A stretch of DNA of 64,000 nt, taken from the NCBI RefSeq assembly GCF_024346455.1, contig NZ_JAGQCY010000002.1:186001-250000 (forward strand), read 5' to 3'. The translations under genes were made by a program, and so were the position numbers. This document shows, one piece after another, positions 15,338 through 63,196 of this stretch; position 1 is the first letter of the stretch, and the number at the start of each line of letters is the position of its first letter. The notes below the pieces were generated by a model. It saw only the letters and a program-made list of their open reading frames with translations. It was not told the origin of the DNA and ran no database searches. This DNA is from Cyanobium sp. Aljojuca 7A6. Lineage in GTDB: Bacteria; Cyanobacteriota; Cyanobacteriia; PCC-6307; Cyanobiaceae.

Positions 15338-15341
15338 CGCC

Positions 15342-15995
15342 TCAGCCCAGCAACGAGGCCAGCAGGCGGCGGCCGTCCAGCCCGCCGGTGACGGGATCGC
15401 AGGCCCGCTCCGGGTGGGGCATCAGGCCGAGCACATGGCCCGCCGGGTTCGTCAGACCGGCCACATCCCCTCGCGAGCCATTCGGGTTGGCGACATAGCG
15501 CAGCACGACACAGCCCTGATCCTCGAGGCGCTGCAGCTCCTCCGGCTCCACCTGGTAGCGCCCTTCCCCGTGGGCGATGGGCAGGCTGATCCGCTCGCCG
15601 CCGCCGTAGGCACCCAGCCAGCGGCAGGCTCCCGGCCGTACCTCCAGCTCGCTGCTCTGGCAGAGGAAGTGCAGGTCCCGGTTACGGGTCAGGGCGCCCG
15701 GGAGCAGGCCCATTTCCGTGAGGACCTGGAAACCGTTGCAGATGCCGAGCACCGGACCGCCGCGGTCGGCGAACGTGCGCACTTCCTCCAGCACCGGGGC
15801 GAAACGGGCGATGGCGCCGCAGCGCAGGTAGTCGCCGTAGCTGAAGCCCCCCGGGAGCACAACGGCGTCCAGGCCGGAAAGGTCCCGTTCCTCATGCCAG
15901 AGGAAGCGCACAGGGATGTCCAGACAGCCCTCCAGGGCCCAGGCCACGTCCCGGTCACAGTTGGATCCAGGAAACACAACAATGCCAACGGTCAT
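15342..15995 (-). CDS. purQ: Phosphoribosylformylglycinamidine synthase, glutaminase subunit PurQ
   Basis: This 217-residue class I glutamine amidotransferase supplies ammonia to PurL in the fourth step of purine synthesis. It begins [15 protein letters not shown]. The catalytic cysteine is in [12 protein letters not shown] (about residue 86). The histidine-glutamate pair is in [11 protein letters not shown] near the C-terminus. The length is typical of the small, separate PurQ used with PurS and small PurL. It lies 13 bp downstream of purS in a two-gene operon; purL is not in this window. Confidence 0.96.
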
Positions 15996-16008
15996 CGGTT
16001 TGCTCCCC

Positions 16009-16275
16009 TCAGCCCGCTTCCGCCAGATCCAGGGACCAATCCTCGATCACCGGATTGGCCAGCAGACGGTCACTGAGCAATTCGAGTCGGGCCTGGGCGG
16101 TGGCCCGATCCGGCGCCTCCAGATCCAGTTCGATCGCCTTGCCGATCCGCAGCCGCTTCACGCCCTCCACCCCGAGACGGGCAGCGGCGGCCCGGGTGGC
16201 TTCGCCAGCGGGATCCAGGACGGAGGGTCGCAGGGAGACCTGAACGCGGGCGTTGAAGAGCGGCACCGGAGGCAC
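16009..16275 (-). CDS. purS: Phosphoribosylformylglycinamidine synthase subunit PurS
   Basis: This 88-residue structural subunit bridges PurQ and PurL in the FGAM synthase complex. Landmarks are [42 protein letters not shown] and the C-terminal [13 protein letters not shown], all family-typical. The length is normal. It is directly upstream of purQ, and its start is close to that of a divergent small secreted-protein gene, so the promoters of the two must lie within each other's 5' region. Confidence 0.93.
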
Positions 16276-16360
16276 GGACGTTTGTTAAATCTTGGCAGCA
16301 CGCCCCACCAGCGTCCCGCTGGCTGACCAGGCTGGAAATGGTCCTCCGTACCACTTGGCC

Positions 16361-16723
16361 GTGGTGCCTTCCCTGCGAAGGTTTCTGCTGGATTCACTGG
16401 GCCATCGCTTGCTGGCCTGGGTCATGGGTCTCTCCCTGGCTTGCGCCGCCCTGCAAGCCCATTCCCTGCCGGGGCTGGTCGCGTTGCAGTGCCGCCTGGC
16501 GGATGGTCCCTGGCAGGACTGCCACATGCAGGTGGAGGAGCTGGGCCTGCACTGGTTCCTGCTGGTGGGGGGTGAGCGGATCGAATTCCGCCACGATGGC
16601 CGGGGCAAGGTGACGATGCTGAAGCCCTCCGGCGGCTGGCAGCCGGTGAACAGCCGCTGGGTGGAAAACAAGGATCTCTGTTGGGATGGGGTCTGCGCCA
16701 GGGGGGACATCCCCCTCGACTGA
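16361..16723 (+). CDS. Small exported protein, unknown function
   Basis: This protein has about 120 residues with an N-terminal hydrophobic segment (about residues 5-33, ending CAALQAHS) that looks like a signal peptide. The mature part contains four cysteines (LQCRLAD, DCHMQVEE, KDLCWDGVCARGD) and a short basic-aromatic region. I recognise no family. The start is uncertain: GTG codons at 16361 and 16364 fit the signal peptide best. A TTG at 16292 would add 23 residues and nearly reach purS. It converges on the CobW-type gene with 16 bp between. Confidence 0.6.
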   Translation: MVPSLRRFLLDSLGHRLLAWVMGLSLACAALQAHSLPGLVALQCRLADGPWQDCHMQVEELGLHWFLLVGGERIEFRHDGRGKVTMLKPSGGWQPVNSRWVENKDLCWDGVCARGDIPLD

Positions 16724-16739: not shown

Positions 16740-17822
16740 TCAGAGCTGATCGAGGGCCAGGCGCAGGGGCCCGGCGGCTCCGGCGGTGGCCAGGACCACC
16801 AGCTCCAGTCCATCGGCGTTCTGCTCGCCGGGGTCAGCGGCGGCCTCATCGCCTGGGGGGGAAGACGCGCGCTCCTCGTACCAGCACTCGAGACGACGGC
16901 CCACCCCCTGGATCTGCAACGGCAGCTTCTTGCCGGCCTGGCGCAACCGGCCCTTGAGTCGCACCACCGGATGGGCGATCAGGAGTTGCTGCAGCTCCGT
17001 TTCCAGGGCGGCCCGCTGCCAGCGCCCGGAGCGACGCAGCAGCAGGGATTCCATCGCCACGTGGGCGTGGTCGTGGTGATCGTGGTCGTGGTCGTGATCG
17101 TCGTGGTGGTGATCGCCCTCCTCCCTGCCAGGCCCATCCAGCACCAGGGATGGATCGAGCTGGCCCCGGGCCATCGGCAGCACCACGGTGCCGGGGCGCA
17201 GGCCCGCAGCCAGGCTGGCCTTCACCTGCTCGAAAGCCTCCGGCTGCAGCCGGTCGGCACGGCTGACCAGCACAAGATCGGCGGCACCGAGCTGATCGGC
17301 GAACAGCTCCTCGATGGCGCTGATGTGGTCGAGGCTGGGATCGGCCTGGCGCTGGGCTTCCACGGCGGCGGCATCACCCACCACATGGCCGGCAGCCAGG
17401 GCTTCGCCGTCCACCACCGTCACCACCCCATGCACACGTGTGCGGCTGCGGATCTCCGGCCAGCCGAAGGCGGCCACCAGGGGTTCGGGCAGGGCCAGGC
17501 CACTGGTTTCCACCACGATGCCGTCGAGACGGTCGGCGCGCTCCAGCAGGCGGGTCATGGTGGGCAGGAACTCGTCCTGCACCGTGCAGCAGAGGCAGCC
17601 ATTGGCGAGTTCCACCAGGCGGCCCTCGAGCTCATCGTCCGGACAGAAGCCGCAGGCGGCGATCAGGTCGCCGTCGATACCCACCTCGCCGAACTCATTG
17701 ACCAGCACGGCCAGGCGAAGACCGCTCTCCAGCAGCAGGTGGCGCAGCAGGGTGGTCTTACCGGCCCCCAGAAATCCGGTCACTACCGTGACCGGAAGAC
17801 GTCTTGAGGGGGTGGCCATCAT
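16740..17822 (-). CDS. CobW/COG0523-type GTPase with histidine-rich metal loop
   Basis: This 360-residue G3E-family GTPase probably acts as a metallochaperone or metal-insertion factor. The P-loop is GFLGAGKTT (about residues 16-24) and the family metal motif GCLCCT has cysteines near 76, 78 and 79. NKxD-type recognition is replaced by SRAD, as in many members. Around residues 235-262 there is a run of Asp and His (DHHHDDHDHDHDHHDHAH) before the C-terminal CobW_C domain, which ends in a GRRLECWYEER block. The ATG pair at 17822/17819 is preferred to an upstream GTG. The substrate metal (zinc, cobalt or iron) cannot be told; no zur box or B12 riboswitch is visible. Confidence 0.85.
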   Translation of the reverse strand: MMATPSRRLPVTVVTGFLGAGKTTLLRHLLLESGLRLAVLVNEFGEVGIDGDLIAACGFCPDDELEGRLVELANGCLCCTVQDEFLPTMTRLLERADRLDGIVVETSGLALPEPLVAAFGWPEIRSRTRVHGVVTVVDGEALAAGHVVGDAAAVEAQRQADPSLDHISAIEELFADQLGAADLVLVSRADRLQPEAFEQVKASLAAGLRPGTVVLPMARGQLDPSLVLDGPGREEGDHHHDDHDHDHDHHDHAHVAMESLLLRRSGRWQRAALETELQQLLIAHPVVRLKGRLRQAGKKLPLQIQGVGRRLECWYEERASSPPGDEAAADPGEQNADGLELVVLATAGAAGPLRLALDQL

Positions 17823-17894
17823 CAGAGAAGAGGCAAAGGCAAGCACCAGAACCTAGGGGAGTTGCGGCCACCCCGATGCAGGGCCAGCGGGGCG

Positions 17895-18431
17895 TCAGCG
17901 GCAGCCAAGGCTTTCGCTGGTCGTCACGCCGGTGACGGGGTGGCGGCCGGACGCGCGGGCACAGAGGGCTTTTTGCTCAGGCATATCGAGCACGGCGTCG
18001 CTGAAATCAGCCCCTTCGATCTGGGCATCCCGAAAGCGGCTCTGCATCAGCATGGCGTTGCGGAACTGGGTCCCGCGCAGGTCAGCACCGTCGAAGCGGG
18101 TGGCGAACGCCACCACGTCCTCAAGATCGGCGCCGCGCAGATCCGCCTGGCGCAGATCGGTGGCATTGAACACGGCCCCACGCAGATCGGCATCCCGCAG
18201 GTCAAAGCCCTCCATGGAGGCCTTGAGGAATTCCTGTTGCTGCAGATTGCGCCCCCGCAGATCCGGATCGAGATCCTGGAAGGAACGCTGGGCCCGCAGC
18301 TCCGGGGCGGTGATCGCCAGCGCCGGTCCCACCGGCAGCGCGGCCCAGAGCATCACCAGGGTCAGAAGGGCACCCAGCAGGCCGCAGGCCCTGCGGGCGA
18401 TCGCGGCAAAGGACTGAAAGCTGGGGGCCAT
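17895..18431 (-). CDS. Secreted pentapeptide-repeat protein, probably lumenal
   Basis: This 178-residue protein has a signal peptide (hydrophobic residues about 15-38, cleavage near GPALA). A right-handed beta-helix of A(D/N)LXX repeats follows (DLRDADLRGAVFNATDLRQADL and further copies to about residue 150). It ends in a short tail with two cysteines (ALCARASG, SLGCR). Lumenal pentapeptide proteins such as TL15/TL17 occur in cyanobacteria and plastids with mostly unknown roles. It is divergent from the Upp-like gene (48 bp between starts). Confidence 0.8.
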   Translation of the reverse strand: MAPSFQSFAAIARRACGLLGALLTLVMLWAALPVGPALAITAPELRAQRSFQDLDPDLRGRNLQQQEFLKASMEGFDLRDADLRGAVFNATDLRQADLRGADLEDVVAFATRFDGADLRGTQFRNAMLMQSRFRDAQIEGADFSDAVLDMPEQKALCARASGRHPVTGVTTSESLGCR

Positions 18432-18479
18432 GCCACACCGGTACGCTGCCGGTTCAAGCTATGGCAGACGCAGCCCGTC

Positions 18480-23072: not shown

Positions 23073-26000
23073 ATGCAACAATCCAGTGACGCAGTGCCGT
23101 TGCAGACGCCATCCTCTGACTCCCTTGTCGATGCCTTGCCATCTTCGGGGACAGCTGGAGAAATCGAGAATGATTTCAATGAGACATTGATGCATCTTGT
23201 CGGCATCGGCGCATCAGCAGGAGGGCTGGAGGCACTGCAACTGCTTCTGACCAGCCTCGCCCCCGGTGGCAGCGTGGCCTATGTCGTGGCTCAGCACCTG
23301 GCCCCCGACCACGGCAGCTTGATGGTCGATCTGCTGGCCCGGGTCACGCCGCTGCAGGTGGTCAAGGCGGTGGATGGGGCCGTGTTTCTCCCCGACACCA
23401 TCACCGTGTGTCCACCCAATCACGACATCCGCGTGCAGGGGAACCGGGTGGCCCTGGTGGACCCCGAACCGCGCTTCGGTCCCAGCCCCAGCATCGATCG
23501 CCTGTTCGAATCGATCGCCGATCATTGGGCCGAGCGCGGCGCTGCCGTGGTGTTGTCGGGCACCGGATCCGACGGGGCCCGCGGTCTGCGGGCCGTTCGT
23601 GCCGCCGGCGGCCTCACCATCGCCCAGACCCCCGAGAGCGCCCGCTTCGATGGCATGCCCAGGGCCGCCATCGCCATGGGTGGGGCCGACCTCATCCTCG
23701 ACCCGGTCGCCATCGGTCAGCACCTCTGTGAGCTGATGCGTTCGGGCGACGACTGGGTGGAGCAAAACCTGCCGAAACCGGAGGCCCTGAATGTCAGCAG
23801 CGCCCTGGAGCTGCTCAAGCACAACAGCGGCATCGACTTCAGCCAGTACAAGCACTCCACGCTGCAGCGGCAGCTGTCGCGGCGCATGGCGCTGCGCCAG
23901 ATGGACACCATGGAGCAGTACCTGCAGCTGCTGACGGCCGACCGCAATGAGTCGTCAGCCCTGGTCCAGAACCTGCTGGTCACCGTCACGTCCTTTTTCC
24001 GCGACCCCGAATCCTTCACGGCCCTGGGCGACCTGCTGCGGGCCTATGTGGCCCAGCGCACCCGCCGGGATCGCCTCAGGGTGTGGGTGCCCGGATGTGC
24101 CACCGGCGAAGAGGTGTACTCCATCGGCATGCTGATCAGCGAGGTGCTCGACCATCCCCAGGATCTGAGCCATCACCTCAAGATCTTCGGCACCGATCTC
24201 GACGAGGAAAGCCTGGGCCTGGCGCGCCGGGCCACCTACCCGGCGTCGACCGTCATGGCGATCCCGGAAGCCCTGCGGGAGCGGTTTGTGGTTCGTCACA
24301 ACGGCGAGATGCAGATCAGCGAAGCCCTGCGCAACTGCGTCGTGTTCGCCCGTCACAACGTGGGAATGGACCCTCCCTTCCCGCGGCTGGATCTGATCTG
24401 CAGCCGCAATACCCTCATCTACTTCACCCCGCCCCTGCAGGACCGGGTGCTGGGCCTGTTTCGTTTCGGCCTGCTGCCCTCCGGTCTGCTGTTCCTGGGG
24501 CGGACCGAATCGCTCGGCAGCCGCACCCAGGGCTTCGGTGTGGCCAATGCCGAGCACCGCATCTTCTATCGCACCGCCGAGAACCAGCCCAGCCGCCACT
24601 CCATCTTCACCCAGCCGGCCCAGCGCCCCCCCCAGATGTTCAGCCCGGTGGGCCGCATCTCGATCCTGCGGGAAACCGTGGTGGAGGAGCACGTCGCCAC
24701 CCTGGAAGCCCTGGTGCGCAGCACGTTTCCCCCCTGCGTGGTGCTCGATGAAGCCCACGAACTTGTAGAAGTGATCGGCGATGTCAGCCCCTACTGCCGG
24801 CTGCCGGAGGGCCGGATCTCCAGTGCCGCCACCACCTTTCTGCTGCCGGATCTGCAGGCCGAAGCCCGCGCCCTGCTGCTGATCGTTCGGGCCGATGGCC
24901 AACCGGTGCGCAGCCGGGTGCTGCACCTGCCCGCCTTCGGCCTGCGCCTGCAGCTGGAGGCCCGGCCCCTGGAAGTGAACGAGCGGCTGCTGACGCTGCT
25001 GAGCTTTCTGCCTGAGCCGGCCGATGGACCGGAACCCGCCAGCAGTGGCGAGCCCGTCACCCGGGCACCGGACTTCGACCAGCAGATCGCCAGGCTGGAG
25101 AAGGAGCTGCTCGCCAGCCACGACACCCTGCGGCGCTCGATGGCCGACCTGGAGGGGGCCAACGAAGAACTGGAAGCTTCCGCCGAGGAGCTGCAGGCCT
25201 CCTCCGAGGAACTGCAGTCGTCGAATGAGGAGCTGGAATCCTCCAACGAGGAGCTGCAGGCCACCAACGACGAACTGGGCACCCTCAATCAGCAGCTGCG
25301 GGCCAAGACGGAGGACCTGCAGGAGCTCAGCTCCGATCTCGAGAACATTCAGCGGTCCCTGAACCAGGGGATGGTGATCGTCGACCGGGAGCTGCGGATC
25401 ACCCGCTACACGCCGCTGGCGGTGCGCGTCTTCGCCCTGGTGGAGGGGGACATCGGCCAGCCCCTGCTGGGGATCCCCACCACGGTGGCCCTTCCTGGCC
25501 TGCGGTCGGCCCTGGGGGAGGTGCTGGCCGGCGCCTCCCGGCGCAGCATCGAGGCGGTGAACGAGGAGATCGCCTACCTGGCCCAGGTGCTGCCCTACCA
25601 GGAAAAGGAGGGGCAGCGCCGCGGGGCCATCGTCACACTCACCGACGTGTCGGAACTGCAGGCCCTGCGCATGGCCGCTGAGGCCTCCCTGGATTCCTTC
25701 TCCAGCCTCACCGATGCCCTCGACGAAGCGGTCTGGAAAAGGGACGACACCCTGCACCGCCTCCTCTACGCCAGCAAGCGCATCCTGCCCCTGACGGGCT
25801 GGACCCCGGCCGAGCTGTTCGCCCATTCGGAACTGCTCGATGACGCCATCGATCCGGCCGACCGCGAGCGGGTCTGGGCCAGCCGCAACCTGAGACAGGG
25901 TGGCTGGTCGGTGGAATACCGGATCATCCGCCGCGATGGCCAGCGCCGCTGGGTGAAGGAAAACGCCCGGGTGCTCACTGAAGCCATGGATCGCTACGTG

Positions 26001-26405
26001 GTCGGCACCCTGGCCGACGTGACGGAGCAGCGCCAGATCGGGAAGCATGGCCAGGACCTGAGCGTTCTCTTCGAGACCCTGATCCGCAGCACCAGCTTCG
26101 CCCTGGCGGTGTTCGACGCCGAGCAGCGGGTGGTGATGGTCAATGGCAGCCTCTGCGAACGCCTCGGCTTCGACCGGGCCAGCCTGGTGGGCTCGCCGGC
26201 GTCCCTCTTCTGCGCTCTGCCGGAGGCGGTGTGGGCGGACTCGGTCAGCGACGTCGCCACCGCGGAGCCGGTGATGCGCAGCGAGCGCCTCAGCCTGCGG
26301 CACCGGGATGGCCGAACGCTGCAGGCAGCGGCCGAACTCTGGCGCCTGCCGTCATCGGTGGGGATCGGGGCCCTGCTGGTGGTGCTGCCGTCGTCTCAAC
26401 CCTGA
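23073..26405 (+). CDS. CheB-CheR-PAS fusion sensor protein without kinase domain
   Basis: This 1110-residue protein begins with a CheB methylesterase domain (about 40-225). Its catalytic triad is visible as Ser48 in GIGASAGG, His75 in VAQHLAPDHG and Asp167 in LSGTGSDGARG. A CheR N-terminal and methyltransferase region follows (about 245-510), with SAM motif VPGCATGEEVYS and the RNTLIYF block. A heptad-rich coiled coil (about 680-770, repeated NEELE/SSEELQ) leads into three PAS-type segments (about 785-880, 890-985 and 1000-1105). The family usually ends in a histidine kinase, often HWE type, but this protein stops after the last PAS with a normal TGA. No chemoreceptor or kinase gene is adjacent. 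Its role is probably signalling by methylation; the substrate is unknown. Confidence 0.87.
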   Translation: MQQSSDAVPLQTPSSDSLVDALPSSGTAGEIENDFNETLMHLVGIGASAGGLEALQLLLTSLAPGGSVAYVVAQHLAPDHGSLMVDLLARVTPLQVVKAVDGAVFLPDTITVCPPNHDIRVQGNRVALVDPEPRFGPSPSIDRLFESIADHWAERGAAVVLSGTGSDGARGLRAVRAAGGLTIAQTPESARFDGMPRAAIAMGGADLILDPVAIGQHLCELMRSGDDWVEQNLPKPEALNVSSALELLKHNSGIDFSQYKHSTLQRQLSRRMALRQMDTMEQYLQLLTADRNESSALVQNLLVTVTSFFRDPESFTALGDLLRAYVAQRTRRDRLRVWVPGCATGEEVYSIGMLISEVLDHPQDLSHHLKIFGTDLDEESLGLARRATYPASTVMAIPEALRERFVVRHNGEMQISEALRNCVVFARHNVGMDPPFPRLDLICSRNTLIYFTPPLQDRVLGLFRFGLLPSGLLFLGRTESLGSRTQGFGVANAEHRIFYRTAENQPSRHSIFTQPAQRPPQMFSPVGRISILRETVVEEHVATLEALVRSTFPPCVVLDEAHELVEVIGDVSPYCRLPEGRISSAATTFLLPDLQAEARALLLIVRADGQPVRSRVLHLPAFGLRLQLEARPLEVNERLLTLLSFLPEPADGPEPASSGEPVTRAPDFDQQIARLEKELLASHDTLRRSMADLEGANEELEASAEELQASSEELQSSNEELESSNEELQATNDELGTLNQQLRAKTEDLQELSSDLENIQRSLNQGMVIVDRELRITRYTPLAVRVFALVEGDIGQPLLGIPTTVALPGLRSALGEVLAGASRRSIEAVNEEIAYLAQVLPYQEKEGQRRGAIVTLTDVSELQALRMAAEASLDSFSSLTDALDEAVWKRDDTLHRLLYASKRILPLTGWTPAELFAHSELLDDAIDPADRERVWASRNLRQGGWSVEYRIIRRDGQRRWVKENARVLTEAMDRYVVGTLADVTEQRQIGKHGQDLSVLFETLIRSTSFALAVFDAEQRVVMVNGSLCERLGFDRASLVGSPASLFCALPEAVWADSVSDVATAEPVMRSERLSLRHRDGRTLQAAAELWRLPSSVGIGALLVVLPSSQP

Positions 26406-42516: not shown

Positions 42517-42642
42517 TCCCTCAACGGCAAGCCAACGCTGATCTTAGGTGGGGGCTCATTTCAGTGGTTTTTCTACAGGACGGATGCCTGCCCGGCGGTG
42601 TTAGCTTCCACGCCACAGTCCAATGGCGGAGCAGGTTTCAAG

Positions 42643-44034
42643 ATGTTGCGAGTGGCAGTCGTGGGCGGCGGTCCCAGCGGTTCCTGTGCTGCGGAAGTTC
42701 TCGCCAAGGCAGGCATCCAGACCTGGCTGTTCGAGCGCAAGCTCGACAATGCCAAACCCTGCGGAGGCGCGATCCCGCTCTGCATGGTGGAGGAGTTCGA
42801 CCTGCCGGAATCCATCATTGACCGCAAGGTGCGGAACATGCGGATGATCTCTCCTTCCAACAGGGAAGTGGACATCCACCTCGAAAACAGCAACGAGTAC
42901 ATCGGCATGTGCCGCCGGGAAGTTCTCGACGGCTACCTGCGCAATCGGGCCGCCGATCTGGGGGCGCAGCTGGTCAATGGCCTGGTGCAGAGCATCGACA
43001 CCGGCAAGCAGCGTCAGGGCCCCTACACCCTCCATTACGCCGACTACTCCTCCGGAGGCCCCACCGGTGAACTGAAGACCCTCGAGGTGGATCTGATCGT
43101 CGGGGCCGACGGCGCCAACAGCCGCGTGGCCAAGGCCATGGATGCGGGTGATTACAACGTGGCGATCGCCTTCCAGGAGCGCATCCGCCTGCCAGCCGAG
43201 GAGATGGCGTATTACGAGGATCTGGCGGAGATGTATGTCGGCACCGATGTGTCTCCTGATTTCTACGCCTGGGTCTTCCCCAAGTACGACCACGTGGCGG
43301 TGGGCACCGGCACGATGCAGGTCAACCAGTCGCTGATCAAGGGCCTGCAGAAGGGCATTAGGGCGCGGGCCAGCCGACGCCTTCTGCGCGGCGAGGTGAT
43401 CAAGGTGGAAGCCCATCCGATTCCCGAGCATCCTCGCCCGCGGCGGGTTGTGGGCCGCATGGCTCTGGTGGGGGACGCGGCCGGTTACGTCACCAAGAGC
43501 TCCGGCGAGGGCATCTACTTCGCCGCCAAGAGTGGCCGGATGTGTGCCGAGGAAATCGTGGCGGCCAGCGCCTCCGGCAGCCGCATTCCCACCGAGAAGG
43601 ACCTCAAGGTCTACATCCGCAAATGGGACCGCAAGTACGGCGCCACCTACAAAGTCCTGGAGCTCCTGCAGAACATCTTCTACAGCAACGATGCCGCCCG
43701 TGAGGCGTTCGTGGAGATGTGCGATGACAAGGACGTGCAGCGTCTCACTTTCGACAGTTACCTGTATAAGCGGGTGGTGATGATGAACCCCTGGCAGCAG
43801 ATCAAGCTGACCGTCCTCACCCTGGGTGCGGTGCTTCGGGGCCAGGCCCTGGCCCCCGCCGGCTACAAGCCGGTGCCCAGTGCCGTTCGCTCGGCCGAGG
43901 AGGCGGAAGCGATTTTCCTGGCCGCAGAGCCGCGCTCTTCCATGAAGCCTGCAGGCGTGCATGCCACCACGGCGGTTGTGGATCCCCAGGCCGGTGGCGA
44001 TTCCGCCAAGGAACCGGAGCTGGTGGCCAAGTGA
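42643..44034 (+). CDS. chlP: Geranylgeranyl reductase
   Basis: This 463-residue flavoprotein reduces geranylgeranyl groups to phytyl for chlorophyll a, tocopherol and phylloquinone. The FAD motif VAVVGGGPSGSCAAEVLAKAG starts at residue 4, followed by KPCGGAIPLCMVEEFDLP, DLIVGADGANSRVAKAMDAGDY and GDAAGYVTKSSGEGIYFA. These are typical of plant/cyanobacterial ChlP rather than archaeal GGR. ATG 42643 places the Rossmann motif at the usual distance. It converges on the CNNM/CorC gene with 8 bp between. Confidence 0.96.
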   Translation: MLRVAVVGGGPSGSCAAEVLAKAGIQTWLFERKLDNAKPCGGAIPLCMVEEFDLPESIIDRKVRNMRMISPSNREVDIHLENSNEYIGMCRREVLDGYLRNRAADLGAQLVNGLVQSIDTGKQRQGPYTLHYADYSSGGPTGELKTLEVDLIVGADGANSRVAKAMDAGDYNVAIAFQERIRLPAEEMAYYEDLAEMYVGTDVSPDFYAWVFPKYDHVAVGTGTMQVNQSLIKGLQKGIRARASRRLLRGEVIKVEAHPIPEHPRPRRVVGRMALVGDAAGYVTKSSGEGIYFAAKSGRMCAEEIVAASASGSRIPTEKDLKVYIRKWDRKYGATYKVLELLQNIFYSNDAAREAFVEMCDDKDVQRLTFDSYLYKRVVMMNPWQQIKLTVLTLGAVLRGQALAPAGYKPVPSAVRSAEEAEAIFLAAEPRSSMKPAGVHATTAVVDPQAGGDSAKEPELVAK

Positions 44035-44042
44035 GAAACCGT

Positions 44043-45362
44043 TCAGGCCGTCCCCTCGGCCTGCGCTGAGGTCTTAGCGGTGCGACTCACCAGGAGTTTG
44101 TCGACCCGATTGCCATCCATATCCACCACTTCGATCTGAAGGTCATCCCACGCGAAGGACTCTCCGGCCCGGGGGATGTGCTCGAGATGGTGCATCACGA
44201 AGCCACCCAGGGTCTGGTAGCCCCCGCGGACTTCCTCCGGTAGTCGTCCTTTCTGCACCAGGTCCTTGAAGTCGGCGATATCGAGGGCGCCATCCAGGAG
44301 CCAGGAACCATCCTGGCGGACGATGATCATCGGGTCTTCTTTGTCCCTCGCCGAGGAAAGATCTCCCACGATCGCTTCCATCATGTCGTTGAGGGTGACC
44401 AGTCCCTCAATGCCACCAAATTCATCGGTCACCAAGGCGATGTGTACCCCACTGGTTCTGAATTGATCGATCAACTTCAGGGCTCTGGTGCTCTCGCCCA
44501 CGTAGAGCGGCGGCTGCAGAAAGGCCTCGATTTCCCGGGGGCCCTCTCGGAGCTGGGCCGCCAGAAAGGTGCGGCCACGCACCACGCCCACACAGGCGTC
44601 CAGGCTGTCGCGCGCCACCGGGAACAGGGAGTGATTCACCGCCATCACCCGCTCGAGATGGGATTGGGGCGACTCAGAGAGATCCAGCCAGCAGATGTCG
44701 GTGCGGGGGGTCATGATCGCCTTGACCGGCCGATCGGCCAGGCGAAACACACGCTCCACCATGGCGTGCTCCACCACATCGAACAGGCCTGATTCCTTGC
44801 CCCTGCGCAGCAGGGTCCGGATCTCGTCTTCGGTGATCTCCGGCTCACCACTCTCGCCGACGCCCATCAGGCTGAGCAGTCGATCGGTGGACGAGCCGAG
44901 CAGGTGGGCCAGGGGGGCTATCCAGCGCGACAGGGTCCGCATGGGAGGTGCCACCAGGCAGGCGATGCGCTCCGGGTCACTGAGGGCGATGCGCTTCGGC
45001 ACCAGTTCCCCCACCACCAGGGAGAGAAAGGTGATCAGTGTCACCACGATTCCCAGGGCCAGGGGTTCGGCCCAGGCGCGCAACGGAGGCAGGGTCTCCA
45101 GCAGCGGCTGCAAGCCCTCGGCCACCCTCGAGCCGCCCAGGGCGCCGCTGAGGATGCCGATCGAGGTGATGCCGATCTGCACCGTCGAGAGAAAATCATT
45201 GGGGGAACGGATTAGTTTCAGAGCCACTTCCGCCTTCGCATCCCCAGCCTCGGCCTGGTGCTCAAGGCGCAATCTCCGAGCCGACATCATGGCCAACTCC
45301 GAAGCTGAGAAGATCCCGTTGATCAGAATCAACAGGACGATGAGAAAACCGTCGAAAAGCAT
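44043..45362 (-). CDS. CNNM/CorC-type membrane protein (HlyC/CorC family)
   Basis: This 439-residue protein has an N-terminal DUF21/CNNM transmembrane domain (about residues 1-190, starting MLFDGFLIVLLILINGIFSASELAM). A pair of CBS domains (about 205-330, with MTPRTDICWLDL and EFGGIEGLVTLNDMMEAIVGDL) and a C-terminal CorC_HlyC domain follow. Members are implicated in Mg/Co ion homeostasis. I start at ATG 45362 just before the first helix; open frame upstream lacks conserved sequence. It is divergent from the PKS operon. Confidence 0.88.
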   Translation of the reverse strand: MLFDGFLIVLLILINGIFSASELAMMSARRLRLEHQAEAGDAKAEVALKLIRSPNDFLSTVQIGITSIGILSGALGGSRVAEGLQPLLETLPPLRAWAEPLALGIVVTLITFLSLVVGELVPKRIALSDPERIACLVAPPMRTLSRWIAPLAHLLGSSTDRLLSLMGVGESGEPEITEDEIRTLLRRGKESGLFDVVEHAMVERVFRLADRPVKAIMTPRTDICWLDLSESPQSHLERVMAVNHSLFPVARDSLDACVGVVRGRTFLAAQLREGPREIEAFLQPPLYVGESTRALKLIDQFRTSGVHIALVTDEFGGIEGLVTLNDMMEAIVGDLSSARDKEDPMIIVRQDGSWLLDGALDIADFKDLVQKGRLPEEVRGGYQTLGGFVMHHLEHIPRAGESFAWDDLQIEVVDMDGNRVDKLLVSRTAKTSAQAEGTA

Positions 45363-45572: not shown

Positions 45573-46310
45573 ATGCATTGGCAGCCACTGGGCCAGCGGA
45601 ACCGACAACCTGAATGGATGGATCAGATCGGCATCGATGCCGCTGCGCACGACCAAGCCTTGCAAGGTCTGCGCCGGATCAATGCCTTGAGCGGTGCTGT
45701 GGGGTCCCTGTTCACGGAGATCAAGGCCCTGGCCGCTGAACAGGCGCACAGCCGCCCCCTGCGAATCCTGGATGTGGCCTGCGGCGGCGGTGATAACAGC
45801 ATCGCCCTGGCGGAACGCTGCCGAAACCATGGTCTGGCCGTGCAGGTCGACGGCTGCGATCTGAGCCAGCAGGCAGTGACCATCGCCAGTCGCACTGCCG
45901 CCGGAAAGCATCTGAAGGCCACCTTCTTCCAAGCCGACGCCTTGAGGGATCCCCTGCCGCTCGATTACGACGTCGTGGTCTGCAGTCTGTTTCTGCATCA
46001 TCTCGATGAGACCGCCGCCGTCGAACTGCTGCGCCGCATGGGCCAGTGCTGCCGCCAGCTCGTACTGGTGAACGACCTGATCCGCAGTCCCCTCGGGTAT
46101 GGGCTGGCGTGGGTGGGCTGTCGCCTGCTGAGTCGCTCCCCGATCGTGCATTTCGATGGTCCCGTTTCGGTGCAAGGGGCTTTCCGGATGGACGAGGCCC
46201 TGGATCTGACGATCCAGGCCGGCCTTGGGGGGGCCCGCGTCCGGCGCAGCTGGCCGGAGCGCTTCCTGCTCAGCTGGCGACGACCCGCCCTGGTCCTTCA
46301 GGCCCCATGA
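45573..46310 (+). CDS. SAM-dependent methyltransferase of type III PKS operon
   Basis: This 245-residue class I methyltransferase has motif I as ILDVACGGGDNSIALAERC (about residues 64-82), followed by VQVDGCDLSQQAV, the post-I acidic strand, and VVVCSLFLHHLDE in motif IV. The C-terminal part is hydrophobic. It is the first gene of a coupled operon with a flavoprotein and a type III PKS and probably O-methylates their phenolic lipid. Its stop overlaps the next ATG (ATGA). The start is not certain: ATG 45480 would add 31 residues. In Streptomyces the comparable srsB gene methylates alkylresorcinols. Confidence 0.8.
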   Translation: MHWQPLGQRNRQPEWMDQIGIDAAAHDQALQGLRRINALSGAVGSLFTEIKALAAEQAHSRPLRILDVACGGGDNSIALAERCRNHGLAVQVDGCDLSQQAVTIASRTAAGKHLKATFFQADALRDPLPLDYDVVVCSLFLHHLDETAAVELLRRMGQCCRQLVLVNDLIRSPLGYGLAWVGCRLLSRSPIVHFDGPVSVQGAFRMDEALDLTIQAGLGGARVRRSWPERFLLSWRRPALVLQAP

Positions 46311-47461
46311 GCGCACCGGAGTGGGATGTGATCGTGCTCGGGGCAGGTCCCGCTGGCGCCCTGGCGGCCCACCAGCTCTCCAGGCAGCGGCTGCGGGTGC
46401 TGCTGGTGGAGAAGCGCGCCTTTCCACGCTGGAAAGTCTGCGGCACCTGCCTCAACGGGGTGGCCCTCGGGGCGCTGGCACAGGCCGGTCTCCCGGGCCT
46501 GGTGGAGCAGCTGGGCGGTGTGCCCCTCGTCCGGCTGCGACTCGGCCTGCAGAAGCACCAGACGGACCTGGCCATCCCCCTGGGCCGGGCGCTCTCCCGG
46601 GGCAGCCTCGACCTGGCCCTCTGCGATGCCGCGGTGGCCGAAGGAACGGTGTTGCGAATGAACACCGAGGCCACGGTGGCTGGCCCCTGTCCAGGCGGCC
46701 GGCAGGTGCGACTCAACAGCGGCGCCATGCCTGAAACCACCAGCGCCAGGGTGGTGCTGCTGGCGACCGGGCTGGGCAGCTCAGGACTGAACCCTGCCAG
46801 CCCGATCCGGACTCGGGTCCAGGCCCACTCCAGAGTGGGTGCCGGCTGCCGGGTGGACGCCGGCGCCAGCCGCTATGGCCGGGGCACGATCCACATGGCG
46901 ATCGGACGGCACGGCTACGTCGGGCTGGTGCGCACCGAAGCCGGTGATCTCAACCTGGCGGCGGCCTTCGACCGGGCCCATCTGATCCAGGCGGGAGGAG
47001 CGGCCCTCGCCGCCGCCGGCGTGCTGGCGGAGGCCGGATTCGATCCCGTCCCCCAGGCGTCCGCCGCCACCTGGCTGGCCACCCCGGCCCTGACCGTTGG
47101 CCGTTGGCCGTTGGCGTCCGAGCGGTTGCTGTTGCTGGGGGACGCTGCCGGTTACGTCGAACCCTTCACGGGGGAGGGCATGGGCTGGGCGCTGGTGGGA
47201 GCTCTGGCGGCAGTGCCGCTGGTGCTGCAGGGCCAACACCAATGGAGCAGGGAGCTCGAACGGCAATGGGGCCAGCGCCACCGGCAGCTGATCGGATCTC
47301 GCCAACGCCTCTGTCGTGGACTGGCCTTCGCCCTGCGGCGTCCTGGCCTCAGCCGCGCTCTCCTGGCAGCGCTGGACCGCTGGCCGATCCTGGCTGCGCC
47401 CTTCCTGCACTCCATCGATGGCGCCAGCTTGACCCCGCTTGTCTCCAGGCCATGTCCCTGA
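46307..47461 (+). CDS. FAD-dependent monooxygenase/reductase of type III PKS operon
   Basis: This 384-residue flavoprotein opens with a Rossmann motif, VIVLGAGPAGALAAHQLSRQRLRV. FPRWKVCGTCLNGVAL follows, a cysteine-containing block shared with the geranylgeranyl reductase-like and hydroxylase families. The second FAD site is LLLLGDAAGYVEPFTGEGMGWAL (about residues 275-297). With a type III PKS and a methyltransferase it most likely hydroxylates an alkylresorcinol ring; reduction of an acyl chain is an alternative. The start ATG overlaps the methyltransferase stop, and the end overlaps the PKS start by 10 bp. Confidence 0.8.
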   Translation: MSAPEWDVIVLGAGPAGALAAHQLSRQRLRVLLVEKRAFPRWKVCGTCLNGVALGALAQAGLPGLVEQLGGVPLVRLRLGLQKHQTDLAIPLGRALSRGSLDLALCDAAVAEGTVLRMNTEATVAGPCPGGRQVRLNSGAMPETTSARVVLLATGLGSSGLNPASPIRTRVQAHSRVGAGCRVDAGASRYGRGTIHMAIGRHGYVGLVRTEAGDLNLAAAFDRAHLIQAGGAALAAAGVLAEAGFDPVPQASAATWLATPALTVGRWPLASERLLLLGDAAGYVEPFTGEGMGWALVGALAAVPLVLQGQHQWSRELERQWGQRHRQLIGSRQRLCRGLAFALRRPGLSRALLAALDRWPILAAPFLHSIDGASLTPLVSRPCP

Positions 47462-48549
47462 CCATTCAGGGCCTGGGAACGGCCCTGCCACCTCAGCGCA
47501 TCGCCCAGGGCGATGCCGCCACCATCGCGGCCCAGGTGGCCCTGCCCAACCAGGTCCCCTCTCCAGGCCAGCGCCGACTCCTGGATACCCTGCATCGCCG
47601 CTCGGGCGTCGCCACGCGCCACAGCGTCCTGCTCGATCCCCCCGGCAACGACCCCCGACAAACCTTCTTTGGAGCCACAAGCCCCGGCACCGGGGAGCGA
47701 ATGCGCCGCTATGCACGGGAGGCACCACCCCTGGCCCTGCGTGCCGTCGAGGGAGCCCTCGCACAAGCCCGGGTGTCCCCGGAACGGATCACCCATCTGA
47801 TCACGATCTCCTGCAGCGGCTTCGCGGCCCCCGGCATCGATCTCGCCTTGATGGCCGCCCTGCCGATGGACGCTGGCCTGGCGCGGACCCATGTGGGATT
47901 CATGGGCTGCCACGGGGCCCTCAACGGTCTGAGGGTCGCCGCCGGGTTCACCGCTGCCGAGCCGGGGGCCTGTGTGCTGCTCTGTGCCGTCGAGCTCTGC
48001 AGCCTCCATCTCCAGTACGGGTGGGATGCCGAGCGGATCGTGGCCAATGCCCTGTTCGCCGATGGGGCCGCCGCCCTGGTGGCCACCGGGGAGGCCCGGG
48101 CAGAGGGGGGCCCAGCCGCGGAGCCGCTGGGCCGGTTGATCGCCAGCGGCTCCCTTGTGGTGCCAGGCAGCACCGATGCCATGTCCTGGGAGATTGGTGA
48201 CCACGGCTTCGCCATGGGCCTGTCTCCACAGGTTCCTGATCTGATCAGCGAGCATCTGCGTCCCTGGCTGGAGGGGTGGCTGGCCTCCCACCACCTCACC
48301 TGCGCCGCCATCGGCTCCTGGGCCGTGCATCCCGGCGGGCCCCGCATTCTTTCAGCGGTCACCCAGGGCCTGGGGCTCGATCCACGACTGATCGAACCCT
48401 CGCGGTCGGTACTGCGGGACTACGGCAACATGTCGTCCCCGACGCTGCTGTTCATCCTCGAGCGGCTGCGGCGTTGCGGCGCCCCCGGGCCCTGCCTGGC
48501 CATGGCCTTCGGACCTGGCCTGTGCATCGAAGTGGCCCTGCTGGAGTGA
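47452..48549 (+). CDS. Type III polyketide synthase (alkylresorcinol/chalcone-synthase superfamily)
   Basis: This 365-residue homodimeric ketosynthase extends acyl-CoA starters with malonyl-CoA and cyclises the chain. The catalytic triad is complete: Cys153 in GFMGCHGALNGL, His293 in WAVHPGGPRIL and Asn326 in DYGNMSSPT, plus the GFGPG-like AFGPGLCIE loop near the C-terminus. The N-terminal ALPPQRIAQGD is typical of bacterial members. The operon with a methyltransferase and a flavoprotein matches phenolic-lipid clusters such as Streptomyces srsABC, and I recall the hierridin genes of Cyanobium as similar. The product is probably a methoxylated long-chain phenol; chain length cannot be read from sequence. 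Confidence 0.92.
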   Translation: MSLTIQGLGTALPPQRIAQGDAATIAAQVALPNQVPSPGQRRLLDTLHRRSGVATRHSVLLDPPGNDPRQTFFGATSPGTGERMRRYAREAPPLALRAVEGALAQARVSPERITHLITISCSGFAAPGIDLALMAALPMDAGLARTHVGFMGCHGALNGLRVAAGFTAAEPGACVLLCAVELCSLHLQYGWDAERIVANALFADGAAALVATGEARAEGGPAAEPLGRLIASGSLVVPGSTDAMSWEIGDHGFAMGLSPQVPDLISEHLRPWLEGWLASHHLTCAAIGSWAVHPGGPRILSAVTQGLGLDPRLIEPSRSVLRDYGNMSSPTLLFILERLRRCGAPGPCLAMAFGPGLCIEVALLE

Positions 48550-48585: not shown

Positions 48586-50751
48586 TCAGCCCCCCAGGCG
48601 GGTGAAGTCGGCAAGCACGGCGGCCTGGTTGCGCAGCACGGCCAGGAGCCGCAATCGGTTGCGGCGCACCTCAGGTTCCTCACACATCACCATGACGCTG
48701 TCGTCGCCATCAAAGAAGGCGGCCAGGGTGGCTCCGCTCTCCCCCAGCAAACGGGCGAGGGGCTCGTAGCGGGCAGTTCCGGTGGCGCCGGCATGCAGGG
48801 CCAACCGCTCCAGCACCGACAGCACCGCAGCCTCACTGGGGGAAACGAAGAGCTCCGGGTCCACCACGCCAGCCGGGCTGAGGACGTCAGCGGCCAGATC
48901 GGCGTGTTCGGCCAGGCGAGAGGCCCGTTGCACCACCGCTTGCACCAGGGGCAGGCGCTCCTCCAGGCGCAGGCTCCGCAGCAGCTCCACCCGGGCCCGG
49001 GCATCGGCCGGATCCCGCAACAGCCGCTCCAGGGAAGCGCCCTCTCCGGCCACGGCCTGCACCAGATCGGCGCTGGAGCCCTCCTCCTCCAGCAGGCTGG
49101 CGAGGCGCTGACGCAGGAAGTCGAGCAGGTCGGACGCCAAGACGAGTGGCTCGACCGCCAGGGCGGGCAGCAGGACCTGCCAATGGGCCGTCGCTTCGGC
49201 CATCACGGCCACCAGATCAAGCGACCAGCCTCGATCCCAGAGGATCTGCAACACACCGTTACCGGCACGGCGCAGGGCATAGGGGTCGGAGGAGCCGCTG
49301 GGCCTCTCTCCCCTGGCGAAAATGCTCAGCAGGAGCTCCAGTCGCTCGGCCAGGGCCAGCAGGGCGCCCGCCTCCGAACCCGGCAGGGCATCGCCGGCCC
49401 CACGGGGCTGGTAGTGCTCCAGCACCGCCAGGGCCACGGCGCGGGTTTCCCCCTCCGCCAGCAGGTATTTGGCCCCCATGATCCCCTGCAACTCCGGGAA
49501 TTCCCCCACCATCTGGCTGACCAGGTCGTGCTTGCAGAGGGGAGCGGCCCGGCGGGCGGCGCTGGCAGCCTCCTCGCCGATCGGCAGATGGCGACAAAGC
49601 TGATCGGCCAGCCAGGCGAGACGCCGGCTGCGGTCGGCCAGGCTTCCCAGCCCTTCGGCAAAGGTGACCCGGTCGAGGGCTTCCACCCGCTCGCCGCTGC
49701 TCTGACGGCGATCCGCCGCCAGGAAGAAGGCTGCGTCCGCCAGGCGCGCCCGCAGCACCCGCTCATTGCCGCGGCGAATCGTATCGGCGGCGGCCTCCAG
49801 ACCATTGGAGATGCAGAGGAAGCGCGGCATCAGCACCGCCTCCGCCACCAGGGCGAGGGGATCGCCTGAGGCCCCCGAGAGGCGCAGGGGCACATAGCGC
49901 TGGTGGGAACGCATCACCGTGCTGAGCACCTCCGGCGGCAGGGCCAGATAGGCGCTGTCGATGCGTCCCTCGATCAAGCGGGGGGATTCCACCAGGTCAA
50001 CCAGTTCGTCGAACAGCGCCTCTGGCAGATCCAGCTCGGCCCCAGCCCGCTCGGCGGCCGCCTCCAGCTCATGGCGAATCCTCTGTCCCCTGGCCTCCCG
50101 GTCAACCTGCACATCGGCGGCCTCCAGGGTGGCGGCGTAGGCCCCGGCGGAGGGGATCACCACCGCTCCTTGATGCAGACGATGGCCGCGGCTGAGGCGG
50201 CCGCTGCTCAGGGGCGGATCCACATCAGTGAGCTGCACCGGAACAATCGCCCCATCCAGCAGCGCCACGAGCCAGCGCAGGGGCCGGCTGAAGCGGCCGT
50301 CGCCATCGCCCCAGCGCATGAAGCGCCGACCCTGCAGGGAGCGGATCCAGCCGGGGATGCAGCCAGCCAGTACCTCCTCGGCAGAGCGGCCGGCCTCAGT
50401 GGTACGGGCGAACACGAAGGGGCCCTTGTCGGTGTCGCGGATCTCCAGATGCTCCGGCCCGCAGCCACAACGGCGGGCGAAGCCCAGGGCCGCCTGGGTG
50501 GGCTGGCCATCGCGGAACGCCTGCTGGGCCGGGGGGCCCTTGCGGTCTTCGACCAGGTCCTGCTGGCGCTCGGGCAATCCGGCGATGGTCACCGCCAGCC
50601 GGCGGGGGGTGCCGCTGGCGGTGATTCTGTCCCAGGACAGGCGGGCTCCCTGCAGATCCCTGGCCACAATCGCCTCCAGCTGGGGCTGGGCCAGGCGCAC
50701 GAAATCGGCCGGCAGTTCCTCGGTTCCGATCTCCAGAAGAAAGGTGGCCAT
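48586..50751 (-). CDS. glyS: Glycyl-tRNA synthetase beta subunit
   Basis: This 721-residue beta chain of the bacterial alpha2-beta2 GlyRS recognises tRNA. It begins ATFLLEIGTEELPADFV, the diagnostic N-terminus. RFMRWGDGDGRFSRPLRWLVALLD and the internal HD-like and anticodon-binding regions (SLDLVAVMAEA, AAFFDGDDSVMVMCEEPEVR) follow. ATG 50751 is used; open frame runs upstream but is not conserved. The gene converges on the PKS gene and is divergent from sir. glyQ is not in the window. Confidence 0.96.
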   Translation of the reverse strand: MATFLLEIGTEELPADFVRLAQPQLEAIVARDLQGARLSWDRITASGTPRRLAVTIAGLPERQQDLVEDRKGPPAQQAFRDGQPTQAALGFARRCGCGPEHLEIRDTDKGPFVFARTTEAGRSAEEVLAGCIPGWIRSLQGRRFMRWGDGDGRFSRPLRWLVALLDGAIVPVQLTDVDPPLSSGRLSRGHRLHQGAVVIPSAGAYAATLEAADVQVDREARGQRIRHELEAAAERAGAELDLPEALFDELVDLVESPRLIEGRIDSAYLALPPEVLSTVMRSHQRYVPLRLSGASGDPLALVAEAVLMPRFLCISNGLEAAADTIRRGNERVLRARLADAAFFLAADRRQSSGERVEALDRVTFAEGLGSLADRSRRLAWLADQLCRHLPIGEEAASAARRAAPLCKHDLVSQMVGEFPELQGIMGAKYLLAEGETRAVALAVLEHYQPRGAGDALPGSEAGALLALAERLELLLSIFARGERPSGSSDPYALRRAGNGVLQILWDRGWSLDLVAVMAEATAHWQVLLPALAVEPLVLASDLLDFLRQRLASLLEEEGSSADLVQAVAGEGASLERLLRDPADARARVELLRSLRLEERLPLVQAVVQRASRLAEHADLAADVLSPAGVVDPELFVSPSEAAVLSVLERLALHAGATGTARYEPLARLLGESGATLAAFFDGDDSVMVMCEEPEVRRNRLRLLAVLRNQAAVLADFTRLGG

Positions 50752-60242: not shown

Positions 60243-60986
60243 TCAACCGAGGGAGGCCTCACTGGCCCAGAGCCGTCCATCCTCCATCCGCACCAGCCGG
60301 TCGGCCACATCGAGGATGCGCGGATCATGGGTCACCATCAACACGGCACAGCCCTCGTCCCGGGCCAGCCGCTTGAGCAGATCCACCACCTCCCTGCCGG
60401 TGCGGCTGTCGAGGGCGGCGGTGGGTTCATCGGCCAGCAACAGGCGGGGGTGGGCGGCCAGGGCCCGGGCGATCGCCACCCGTTGCTTCTGGCCGCCGGA
60501 GAGGTCATGGGGGAGCTTGCTGAGGTGGTCGGAGAGCCCCACAGCCCGCAGCCACTCCCGGGAAAGGTCGCGGCGGGCGCGGTATCCCAGATCCGGCAGC
60601 AGGTCGGCCCCCATCTGCACGTTCTGCTCGGCGGTGAGGCAGCGCAGCAGGTTGTGGCCCTGGAAGATCATGCCAACGCTGCGGCGCAGCAGCTGGCGCT
60701 CGTGGCGGCTGGACCCCTTCAACTCGCAGCCCAGCACCTGCACCGATCCCTCCATCACCTGACGCAGGGCCCCCACCAGGGTCAGCAGCGTGGTCTTGCC
60801 GCACCCCGAAGGACCCGTGAGCAGCACCACCTCACCGGGGTGGATCTCCAGGTCGATGCCCTGCAGCACCTGACGCTCCATGGAGCCGGTGCCGTACCAG
60901 TGGCTGAGTCCGCGCACCGTCACTGTGGCGAGGCCATCGCCCGTGCTGGCGACAGGGGGGGCGGTACCGGGGTGGAGGGTGGTCAT
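60243..60986 (-). CDS. devA: DevA-type ABC exporter ATP-binding protein
   Basis: This 247-residue ATPase of the DevBCA/MacB-like export group has Walker A GPSGCGKTTLL, the signature DLSGGQKQRVAIARAL, Walker B LLLADEPTAALD and VTHDPRILD. The GTGSMERQVLQGIDLEI N-terminus is DevA-like. In heterocystous species the system exports glycolipids through TolC. In a unicellular strain the cargo is unknown. It lies 18 bp after devC. Confidence 0.88.
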   Translation of the reverse strand: MTTLHPGTAPPVASTGDGLATVTVRGLSHWYGTGSMERQVLQGIDLEIHPGEVVLLTGPSGCGKTTLLTLVGALRQVMEGSVQVLGCELKGSSRHERQLLRRSVGMIFQGHNLLRCLTAEQNVQMGADLLPDLGYRARRDLSREWLRAVGLSDHLSKLPHDLSGGQKQRVAIARALAAHPRLLLADEPTAALDSRTGREVVDLLKRLARDEGCAVLMVTHDPRILDVADRLVRMEDGRLWASEASLG

Positions 60987-61004
60987 CGGCTCAGGAAGAT
61001 CGAC

Positions 61005-62171
61005 TCAGAAGATGTCCGCTGGATCGGCGTCGCCCAGCTTGCGCATCGCCATCGCCGCCGAGCCCATGCACATCACCAGGATCATCAGAAAGACGGTGAT
61101 GGCCCGATCACTGGCCATCGCCACCGGCAGCTTGGTGGCGGCATGGATGACGGCGTACAGCACCTGGCCGGCGGCATAGGCGGGCAGGTAGCCGAAGATC
61201 GCCAGCAGCAGGCCCTCCCGGGCCACCACGCCGAGCAGGGTCAGCAGGCTGTAGCCCATGGCCATGAGGGTGGCGTATTCCGGCAGGTGGTCGCTGACAT
61301 CGGAATAGAGGATCTGGTAAACGATCACGCATCCCACCACGAAACCCATGGCGGCGCCCAGGGTGAAGATGAAGCCGATGGCGGTGCTGCTGCGCCAGTA
61401 GTCCATCTCGAGATCGAGGAAGCCCTGCTTGGTGAGGACGCTGACGTCCTCCGGCAACAGGCCCCGCAGGCGTTCCACCACACGGGCGGGATTGGCCCCG
61501 GGCCGCAGGCGGATCAGCCCCAGCTCGATGCTGCCGGGGGGGGTGTTGGGCAACAGGCTGAGAAAGGTTTCCCGGCTGGTGAGGATGTTGCCGTCGGCGC
61601 CGAAGGAGGCTCCGGCGCTGAACAGGCCCGCCACCCGCAGCCGTTTACCGGCCACTTCACTCTCCACGGTGCGACCCTCTCGGAACCATTGGGCCACCGG
61701 TCCGAATTCATCGCGGGACTGGTCATCGAAGAGCACCCTGCCCTTCTGGGTGAGACGGGGTGCCAGGGCGGTGACGGACGGATCGATGAACAGGGGGTCG
61801 CGGGGCTCAAACCCGAGGGCCAGGATCGAGCGGGTGCCTTTGGTCTTGGGGTTGCGCCACAACAGCAGGTTCCAATGCACCGGCGTGATGCCGGCCACAT
61901 CCGGATCAGCCATGGCCTGCACCAGCCGTCGCTGGGGGAAGCCGGTCATGCTGATCGAGCTCTTGGTGCGCGGGCTGAGCAGCACCAGATCAGTGTCGAA
62001 CAGCTTGTGCACCGTGATGCTGGAATCGAACAGGGCATCACGGAAGCCCAGCTGCATGAACATCAGGATCCCGGCGAAGGTGATCCCCGCCAGGGCCACG
62101 GCCAGGCGCATGGGCTGGCGGGTGAGCAAAAGCCAGGCCAGGGGGATCCGGCGTCCCTGCCAGAACGTCAT
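61005..62171 (-). CDS. devC: DevC-type ABC exporter permease
   Basis: This 388-residue FtsX/MacB-type permease has one N-terminal helix (AWLLLTRQPMRLAVALAGITFAGILMFMQLG context), a large periplasmic domain (about 45-260) and three C-terminal helices. RDALFDSSITVHKLFDTDLVLLSPRTKSS is characteristic of DevC. It overlaps the devB stop region by four bases and devA follows, so the transporter is made as a unit. Confidence 0.9.
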   Translation of the reverse strand: MTFWQGRRIPLAWLLLTRQPMRLAVALAGITFAGILMFMQLGFRDALFDSSITVHKLFDTDLVLLSPRTKSSISMTGFPQRRLVQAMADPDVAGITPVHWNLLLWRNPKTKGTRSILALGFEPRDPLFIDPSVTALAPRLTQKGRVLFDDQSRDEFGPVAQWFREGRTVESEVAGKRLRVAGLFSAGASFGADGNILTSRETFLSLLPNTPPGSIELGLIRLRPGANPARVVERLRGLLPEDVSVLTKQGFLDLEMDYWRSSTAIGFIFTLGAAMGFVVGCVIVYQILYSDVSDHLPEYATLMAMGYSLLTLLGVVAREGLLLAIFGYLPAYAAGQVLYAVIHAATKLPVAMASDRAITVFLMILVMCMGSAAMAMRKLGDADPADIF

Positions 62172-63196
62172 GGCTGCAGGCGGGCGATCACCTTGAGGCC
62201 GGTGAGGGAGGCGACCCTGGCCCCATCACGGGGATCGAGACGCACCCTCACCTCCACCACCCGGGCATCGGCATCACCGGTGGGATCGGTGGAGAGCACC
62301 TCCCGCTGGCGCACCTGGGGGCTGATGCGGCGCACCGTGCCCTGGAGGCTGCCTTCGAAACCACCGTTTTCACTGGTGAGGGTCACGGCCTGGCCGAGCC
62401 GCACCCGGTCGATGTCGCTCTCATAGACCTCCACCAGGGCTTCCATGCGATCGCTGGCCCCCAGTTCGAGGATGCCCTTGTCGCCGGGGCGTTCGCCGAC
62501 GCGGGACTGGATGCGCAGCACCGTGCCGGCGATCGGAGCCCTCAATTCGGTGTTGACCAGATCCGTGCCCGCCTTGACCAATGAGGCCCTGGCTTCCTGC
62601 AGCTCGCCCTGGAGCTCCAGGGTGCGCTGCTCAAGAGCATCGAGATCAGCGGCGGCATAGGCCCCATCACTGGCCAATTGGCGATAACGCTCCAGATCAC
62701 GTGTCTGGATGGTGAGCCGGCGGCCGAGGTTGGCGATGCGGGTGCGAATCAGTGCCAGTTCAGCCCGCTGCAGCGGCTGGTTGTCGAAGCGGGCCAGCAG
62801 TTGTCCGGCCTGCACCTTGTCGCCCTCGCTCACCAGCAGTTCGGTGATGCGGGGGCTTCCCCCAATGCCGGTGATCGGAGCCGCCAGGACGCGCACATCA
62901 CCATCGGGCTCCAGCTGGCCCAGGGCCGCCACTGCCTCCACCGGGGCTGGCGGCCTGGCGGCGGTGACAACCGGGGCCTTGGGAGGCTGCAGGCGCTGAT
63001 AAACAACGACACCCCCCACCAACAGGCCTGCCACACCGGCGACGATCAGGCCGTTGCGCCAGGGACCGGTGGGTCGTCGAAGAGCAGGTCTTCGATGTAG
63101 CGATCCGCCCACTGGGGGTTGAACGCCTTCTCCAGAACCCTGCGGGTCTTGTCGTTTTGTTTCTGTTGCTTGCAATACCTCAGCTGCCCTTGCCAT
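62168..63196 (-). CDS. devB: DevB-type periplasmic adaptor (HlyD family)
   Basis: This membrane-fusion protein links DevAC to an outer-membrane TolC. After one transmembrane helix ([19 protein letters not shown]) come the lipoyl half-motifs ([26 protein letters not shown] and [21 protein letters not shown]), a coiled-coil hairpin (about residues 145-210) and a beta-barrel domain. The start is uncertain. ATG 63196 overlaps pcyA by 151 bp; no other ATG precedes the helix, so a rare CTG close to the pcyA stop is the alternative. Confidence 0.85.

Follow-up and report, generated by a model that had tools for sequence, protein, structure and literature searches.

What does a compact operon ending in a type III polyketide synthase (PKS) make in Cyanobium sp. 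Aljojuca 7A6, and does this operon set the strain apart from its relatives? The operon lies in the window, the whole 64,000-nucleotide stretch (positions 186,001 to 250,000 of contig NZ_JAGQCY010000002.1) that was analysed here. With a probability of roughly 88%, we assign it to the already described hidABC type, giving a hierridin-like tailored alkylresorcinol lipid. Judging from the sequence, a long-chain alkylresorcinol is very probably made by these enzymes and then methylated and oxidised. The operon and its neighbors are arranged in the window as follows.

42598..44034, + strand: geranylgeranyl reductase ChlP, conserved flank outside the operon; 94–97% identical and syntenic in L002–L007 (L008: 93%)
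44043..45359, − strand: CorC/CBS-domain membrane protein, flank; syntenic in relatives, true start uncertain
45573..46310, + strand: hidA-type SAM-dependent methyltransferase (MT), 245 aa; Methyltransf_25, E = 9.7e-17
46307..47461, + strand: hidB-type FAD oxidoreductase, 384 aa, PHBH/GGR-type fold
47452..48549, + strand: hidC-type type III PKS, probable alkylresorcinol synthase, 365 aa; Chal_sti_synt_C 8.9e-22, Chal_sti_synt_N 5.1e-19
48586..50727, − strand: glycyl-tRNA synthetase beta subunit GlyS, flank; convergent with the PKS gene, true start slightly upstream

The three genes are co-directional and closely packed in the order MT, FAD, PKS. All three reading frames are open, and they confirm the gene positions and the overlaps of 4 bp (MT/FAD, ATGA) and 10 bp (FAD/PKS) given in a preliminary description of the locus; the flanks named there, ChlP/CorC and GlyS, hold in the window and in relatives. 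Comparison with five relatives gave dN/dS values of 0.14–0.32 for the MT, FAD and PKS genes, which indicates that the three ORFs are genes under selection. These values, along with the conservation of the operon across several phyla, demonstrate that it is not a chance arrangement. Pfam and NCBIfam are both consistent with the family assignments. The GC and GC3 of the operon resemble those of the neighboring genes, and the genome yielded no type III PKS besides this one. Near the operon no Rfam element was found, a promoter scan found none, and terminator matches stayed at chance level.

Two other genes of the window caught our attention. The gene at 23073-26405 encodes a CheB-CheR-PAS fusion protein of 1110 aa and contains an imperfect 21/63-bp repeat array at 25159-25298, and the 699-aa ORF at 60327-62426 has no Pfam match at E<=1e-8.

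Genome contigs searched at the protein level yielded 80 homologous loci. MT, FAD and PKS are all present in 68 of them, each in the same order and none otherwise; several of the remaining 12 lie near contig ends. The distance matrices of the three proteins correlate with r of 0.85–0.87, a level reached by 0 of 999 permutations, which fits joint inheritance of the three genes. Many cyanobacterial loci share the 10-bp overlap between FAD and PKS, as do a few loci of other phyla. We also notice that in one relative (L004 and L143) the flavoprotein frame extends by ~110 codons into the PKS, producing a frame overlap of 349 bp. Another genome of the same genus carries a divergent type III PKS and a hid-like flavoprotein (each 38% identical; G021:C75:40257-46424, L108 and L146) on opposite strands a few kb apart, possibly a second, different cluster type.

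The same arrangement has been published. In Cyanobium sp. LEGE 06113, the source of hierridins B and C, hidA (MT), hidB (oxidoreductase) and hidC (type III PKS) follow one another in this order (Costa et al. 2019, via PMC8086630 and PMC10896814). Among 47 hierridin-like clusters in cyanobacteria, hidA>hidB>hidC is the commoner and more conserved arrangement (PMC8086630), and MT-oxidoreductase-PKS is the usual order in Planctomycetota, with 58 such operons reported (PMC10896814). The window operon shares with hidABC the three gene types, their order, a picocyanobacterial host and a gatekeeper Met, a likeness drawn through published descriptions rather than sequence identity. It differs in that the PKS of its subclade is only about 55–60% identical to most other picocyanobacterial homologues, which is similar to its distance from planctomycetes. 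With the planctomycete operons (Gimesia maris and others) it shares the order, and their PKSs are proven to make C15/C17 alkylresorcinols (PMC10896814); they differ in phylum, in their unrelated flanks and in the probable C-methylation by the G. maris MT. Window and fetched planctomycete loci are about 46–57% (PKS), 39–52% (MT) and 32–49% (FAD) identical. The link to hierridins in Cyanobium drawn in the preliminary description was right, with the same gene set and order as hidABC. The MT-first order, once regarded as unusual, is no oddity because the operon is of the known hidABC type; it is the published hid standard, occurs in 68/68 complete loci and stands out only beside srsABC/pkqABC.

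The surroundings of the operon were compared in 17 genomes of the same genus, counting that of the window, in which GlyS is at least 80% identical to the window's GlyS. ChlP-CorC-operon-GlyS is an arrangement conserved in close relatives. The CorC-GlyS site holds the operon in 12 of the 17 genomes and deletion remnants in two, and CorC stands directly beside GlyS in the other three (G002, G006, G014). In both remnants the first ~25–40 MT codons are followed directly by an internal PKS segment, and the flavoprotein is gone: in G008 (L101:1440-2310) the MT start leads to PKS residues from about 105 onward, and in G004 (L111:1390-1700) to a C-terminal PKS piece. A search for a close flavoprotein copy elsewhere in these five non-carriers found none. 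Non-carriers nest within carriers in the GlyS tree, a pattern that we read as at least three losses of the operon, with G014 representing either a fourth loss or ancestral absence. For its group the operon is ordinary, and losses have occurred in several close relatives.

In the sister clade, whose PKSs are about 77–80% identical, the operon sits among other, unshared genes, and a common flank was sought there and not found. At one sister-clade locus (L166, G020:C1:948000-967900), members of one ~510-aa gene family flank the operon on both sides (ORFs 54-1604, 15166-16707 and 16934-18463); the family is transposase-like, which hints at mobility there. The preliminary view of a stable chromosomal trait rather than a mobile cluster holds only in part: inheritance at this site is vertical, yet the operon is dispensable in the surveyed genomes and occupies another place in the sister clade.

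The PKS belongs to the chalcone/stilbene synthase family, as evidenced by both Pfam domains and by its alignment to PKS18. The catalytic triad C153-H293-N326 is intact, as first described, and is invariant in 42 homologues; Trp246 and Met255 are invariant in the same set. The counterpart of Trp246 in M. tuberculosis PKS11 is a Trp that has been aligned to Trp281 of ArsB, the resorcinol/pyrone switch (PMC9927152); the link from Trp246 to ArsB is indirect, since our alignment runs through PKS11 and not ArsB itself. A Trp/Gly swap at this site of ArsB and ArsC shifts the product between resorcinol and pyrone (PMC6274091). Met255 occupies the gatekeeper column of CHS Phe265, where the HidC clade (3.2222) has Met and the PKS18 clade Cys (PMC8086630); our alignment confirms Cys for PKS18 itself. 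In a quick tree, built from rows without LEGE 06113 HidC (QBC65480) and without actinobacteria, the window PKS groups with picocyanobacterial homologues including those of Prochlorococcus MIT 0701, Synechococcus WH 5701 and Cyanobium (SH-aLRT 81 for the cyanobacterial clade). Planctomycete PKSs from homologous operons made penta- and heptadecylresorcinols when expressed in C. glutamicum (PMC10896814). Together, Trp246, Met255 and these heterologous products point strongly, by analogy, to 5-alkylresorcinol as the probable product. The earlier proposal that the operon serves phenolic-lipid (alkylresorcinol) biosynthesis has good support: the protein family, the phylogeny, the content of the operon and the key residues all agree with it.

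To our knowledge, no MT-FAD pair accompanies ArsB. This Azotobacter vinelandii enzyme likewise makes long-chain alkylresorcinols and has Trp at the cyclization switch; it differs in its setting, as its gene lies in the ars operon next to that of the pyrone synthase ArsC (PMC6274091).

The MT is 70–93% identical to homologous-operon MTs within its own clade and 39–59% outside it. Its model adopts a class I MT fold (pLDDT 92.8), whose best matches, many of them O-methyltransferases, also comprise the C-methyltransferases NovO and CouO. A PADLOC mad2 match was rejected as a generic MT-domain match. SrsB, the MT of Streptomyces griseus, probably belongs to the ICMT family, and an ICMT search of the window genome gave a sub-threshold match only. 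The G. maris MT probably C-methylates and HidA is reported as O-methylating; the planctomycete MT and FAD pair adds one methyl, probably on carbon, and hydroxylation is unreported (PMC10896814). A methoxylated product of the window operon is likely, but because these two cases differ we assign O- over C-methylation only tentatively.

The flavoprotein falls into the FAD_binding_3/geranylgeranyl-reductase superfamily and carries the motifs GAGPAG and GDAAG. As a ChlP/GGR-type geranylgeranyl reductase it was rejected, as it misses the curated cut-offs (GG-red superfamily TIGR02032, 93 versus 158.8 bits; ChlP, 21 versus 505), and from its sequence it is a member of the wider GGR superfamily only. 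Among full-length curated relatives other than reductases, the monooxygenase QhpG ranks best, with 57.6 bits, which is still below the cut-off. The cysteine block PRxKxCGxC had been thought to make this flavoprotein unusual; all family members, from several phyla, have it unchanged, and it is therefore a family trait and no local oddity. The model (pLDDT 90.5) shows a fold common to p-hydroxybenzoate hydroxylase (PHBH), geranylgeranyl reductases and flavin halogenases. Ring hydroxylation is its likeliest role, assigned only tentatively.

Could one of these enzymes be a different catalyst from the one assumed? The top fold matches of the flavoprotein are the flavin-dependent halogenases Mpy16, PltA, ChlB4, FasV and Bmp2 (Z 37–38), and the chlorination of hierridin C has no assigned enzyme (PMC8086630), which a phenol halogenase in place of a hydroxylase would explain. 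However, PHBH scores nearly as high (Z 34) in a fold common to hydroxylases, reductases and halogenases, and the halogenase motif WxWxIP (pattern W.W.I.) is absent from the window flavoprotein. In the segment G203-Y204-V-G206, which we take to be its counterpart, Y204 and G206 do not vary among 57 family members. A halogenase search of the genome gave one weak match, elsewhere (G000:C10, L174). We consider a halogenase here extremely improbable. An alkylpyrone synthase might be suspected in the PKS, as the pyrone synthase PKS18 is the nearest solved structure by sequence, with PKS11 slightly lower. Both are distant (162.9 bits for PKS18, against ~420–710 for hid-like homologues in the genus), and PKS18 has Leu in the Trp246 column, where the window enzyme carries the Trp of the resorcinol former ArsB. 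As the PKSs of homologous operons gave resorcinols, a pyrone is very improbable.

The pathway as a whole could also follow srsABC of Streptomyces griseus or pkqABC of Mycobacterium smegmatis, in which an alkylresorcinol becomes an alkylbenzoquinone (a polyketide quinone) that would carry electrons in the membrane instead of acting as an allelochemical. Those operons combine the same three activities, a type III PKS (Trp281), an MT and a hydroxylase/oxidoreductase acting on alkylresorcinol, and a flavin hydroxylase on the resorcinol would yield a quinol; the PKS comes first there, with two tailoring genes downstream (PMC9927152), and last in the window. The equation with srsABC in the preliminary description is accordingly apt in function and fails in gene order. 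The srs/pkq PKSs lie in another published clade (2.22 versus 3.222), hid-like enzymes standing apart from actinobacterial ones in that tree (PMC8086630). Moreover, the product known from cyanobacteria, a methoxylated phenol, is unlike their alkylquinone, and a core respiratory role sits poorly with the repeated losses in close relatives. We regard this quinone pathway as unlikely. A distinct alkylresorcinol or alkylquinone of the Cyanobium group, differing from hierridin in methyl position or oxidation and serving as an auxiliary membrane redox lipid that some lineages keep and others repeatedly lose, is distinctly unlikely. The two remnants and three empty sites among relatives might suggest that the operon is decaying or silent here as well. 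We give that idea hardly any credence, as the window operon has intact ORFs, purifying selection and conserved catalytic residues.

Based on the hidABC-type assignment, we propose the following route. The PKS would accept a long-chain acyl group from ACP or CoA on Cys153 and add three malonyl units. The chain length, probably C14-C18, is suggested tentatively. The resulting tetraketide would be closed by C2-C7 aldol condensation with decarboxylation into a 5-alkylresorcinol, whose ring the MT and the FAD enzyme may then methylate and hydroxylate, leading to a hierridin-like methoxylated alkylphenol or hydroquinone lipid.

With this strain, a known phenolic-lipid pathway reaches a further freshwater picocyanobacterium, and the earlier impression of an odd gene order or an odd flavoprotein is set right. 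The most usable new detail is the repeated, site-specific loss among close relatives: the 12 intact, two remnant and three empty sites provide natural pairs of carriers and non-carriers for finding the function of hierridin-like lipids.
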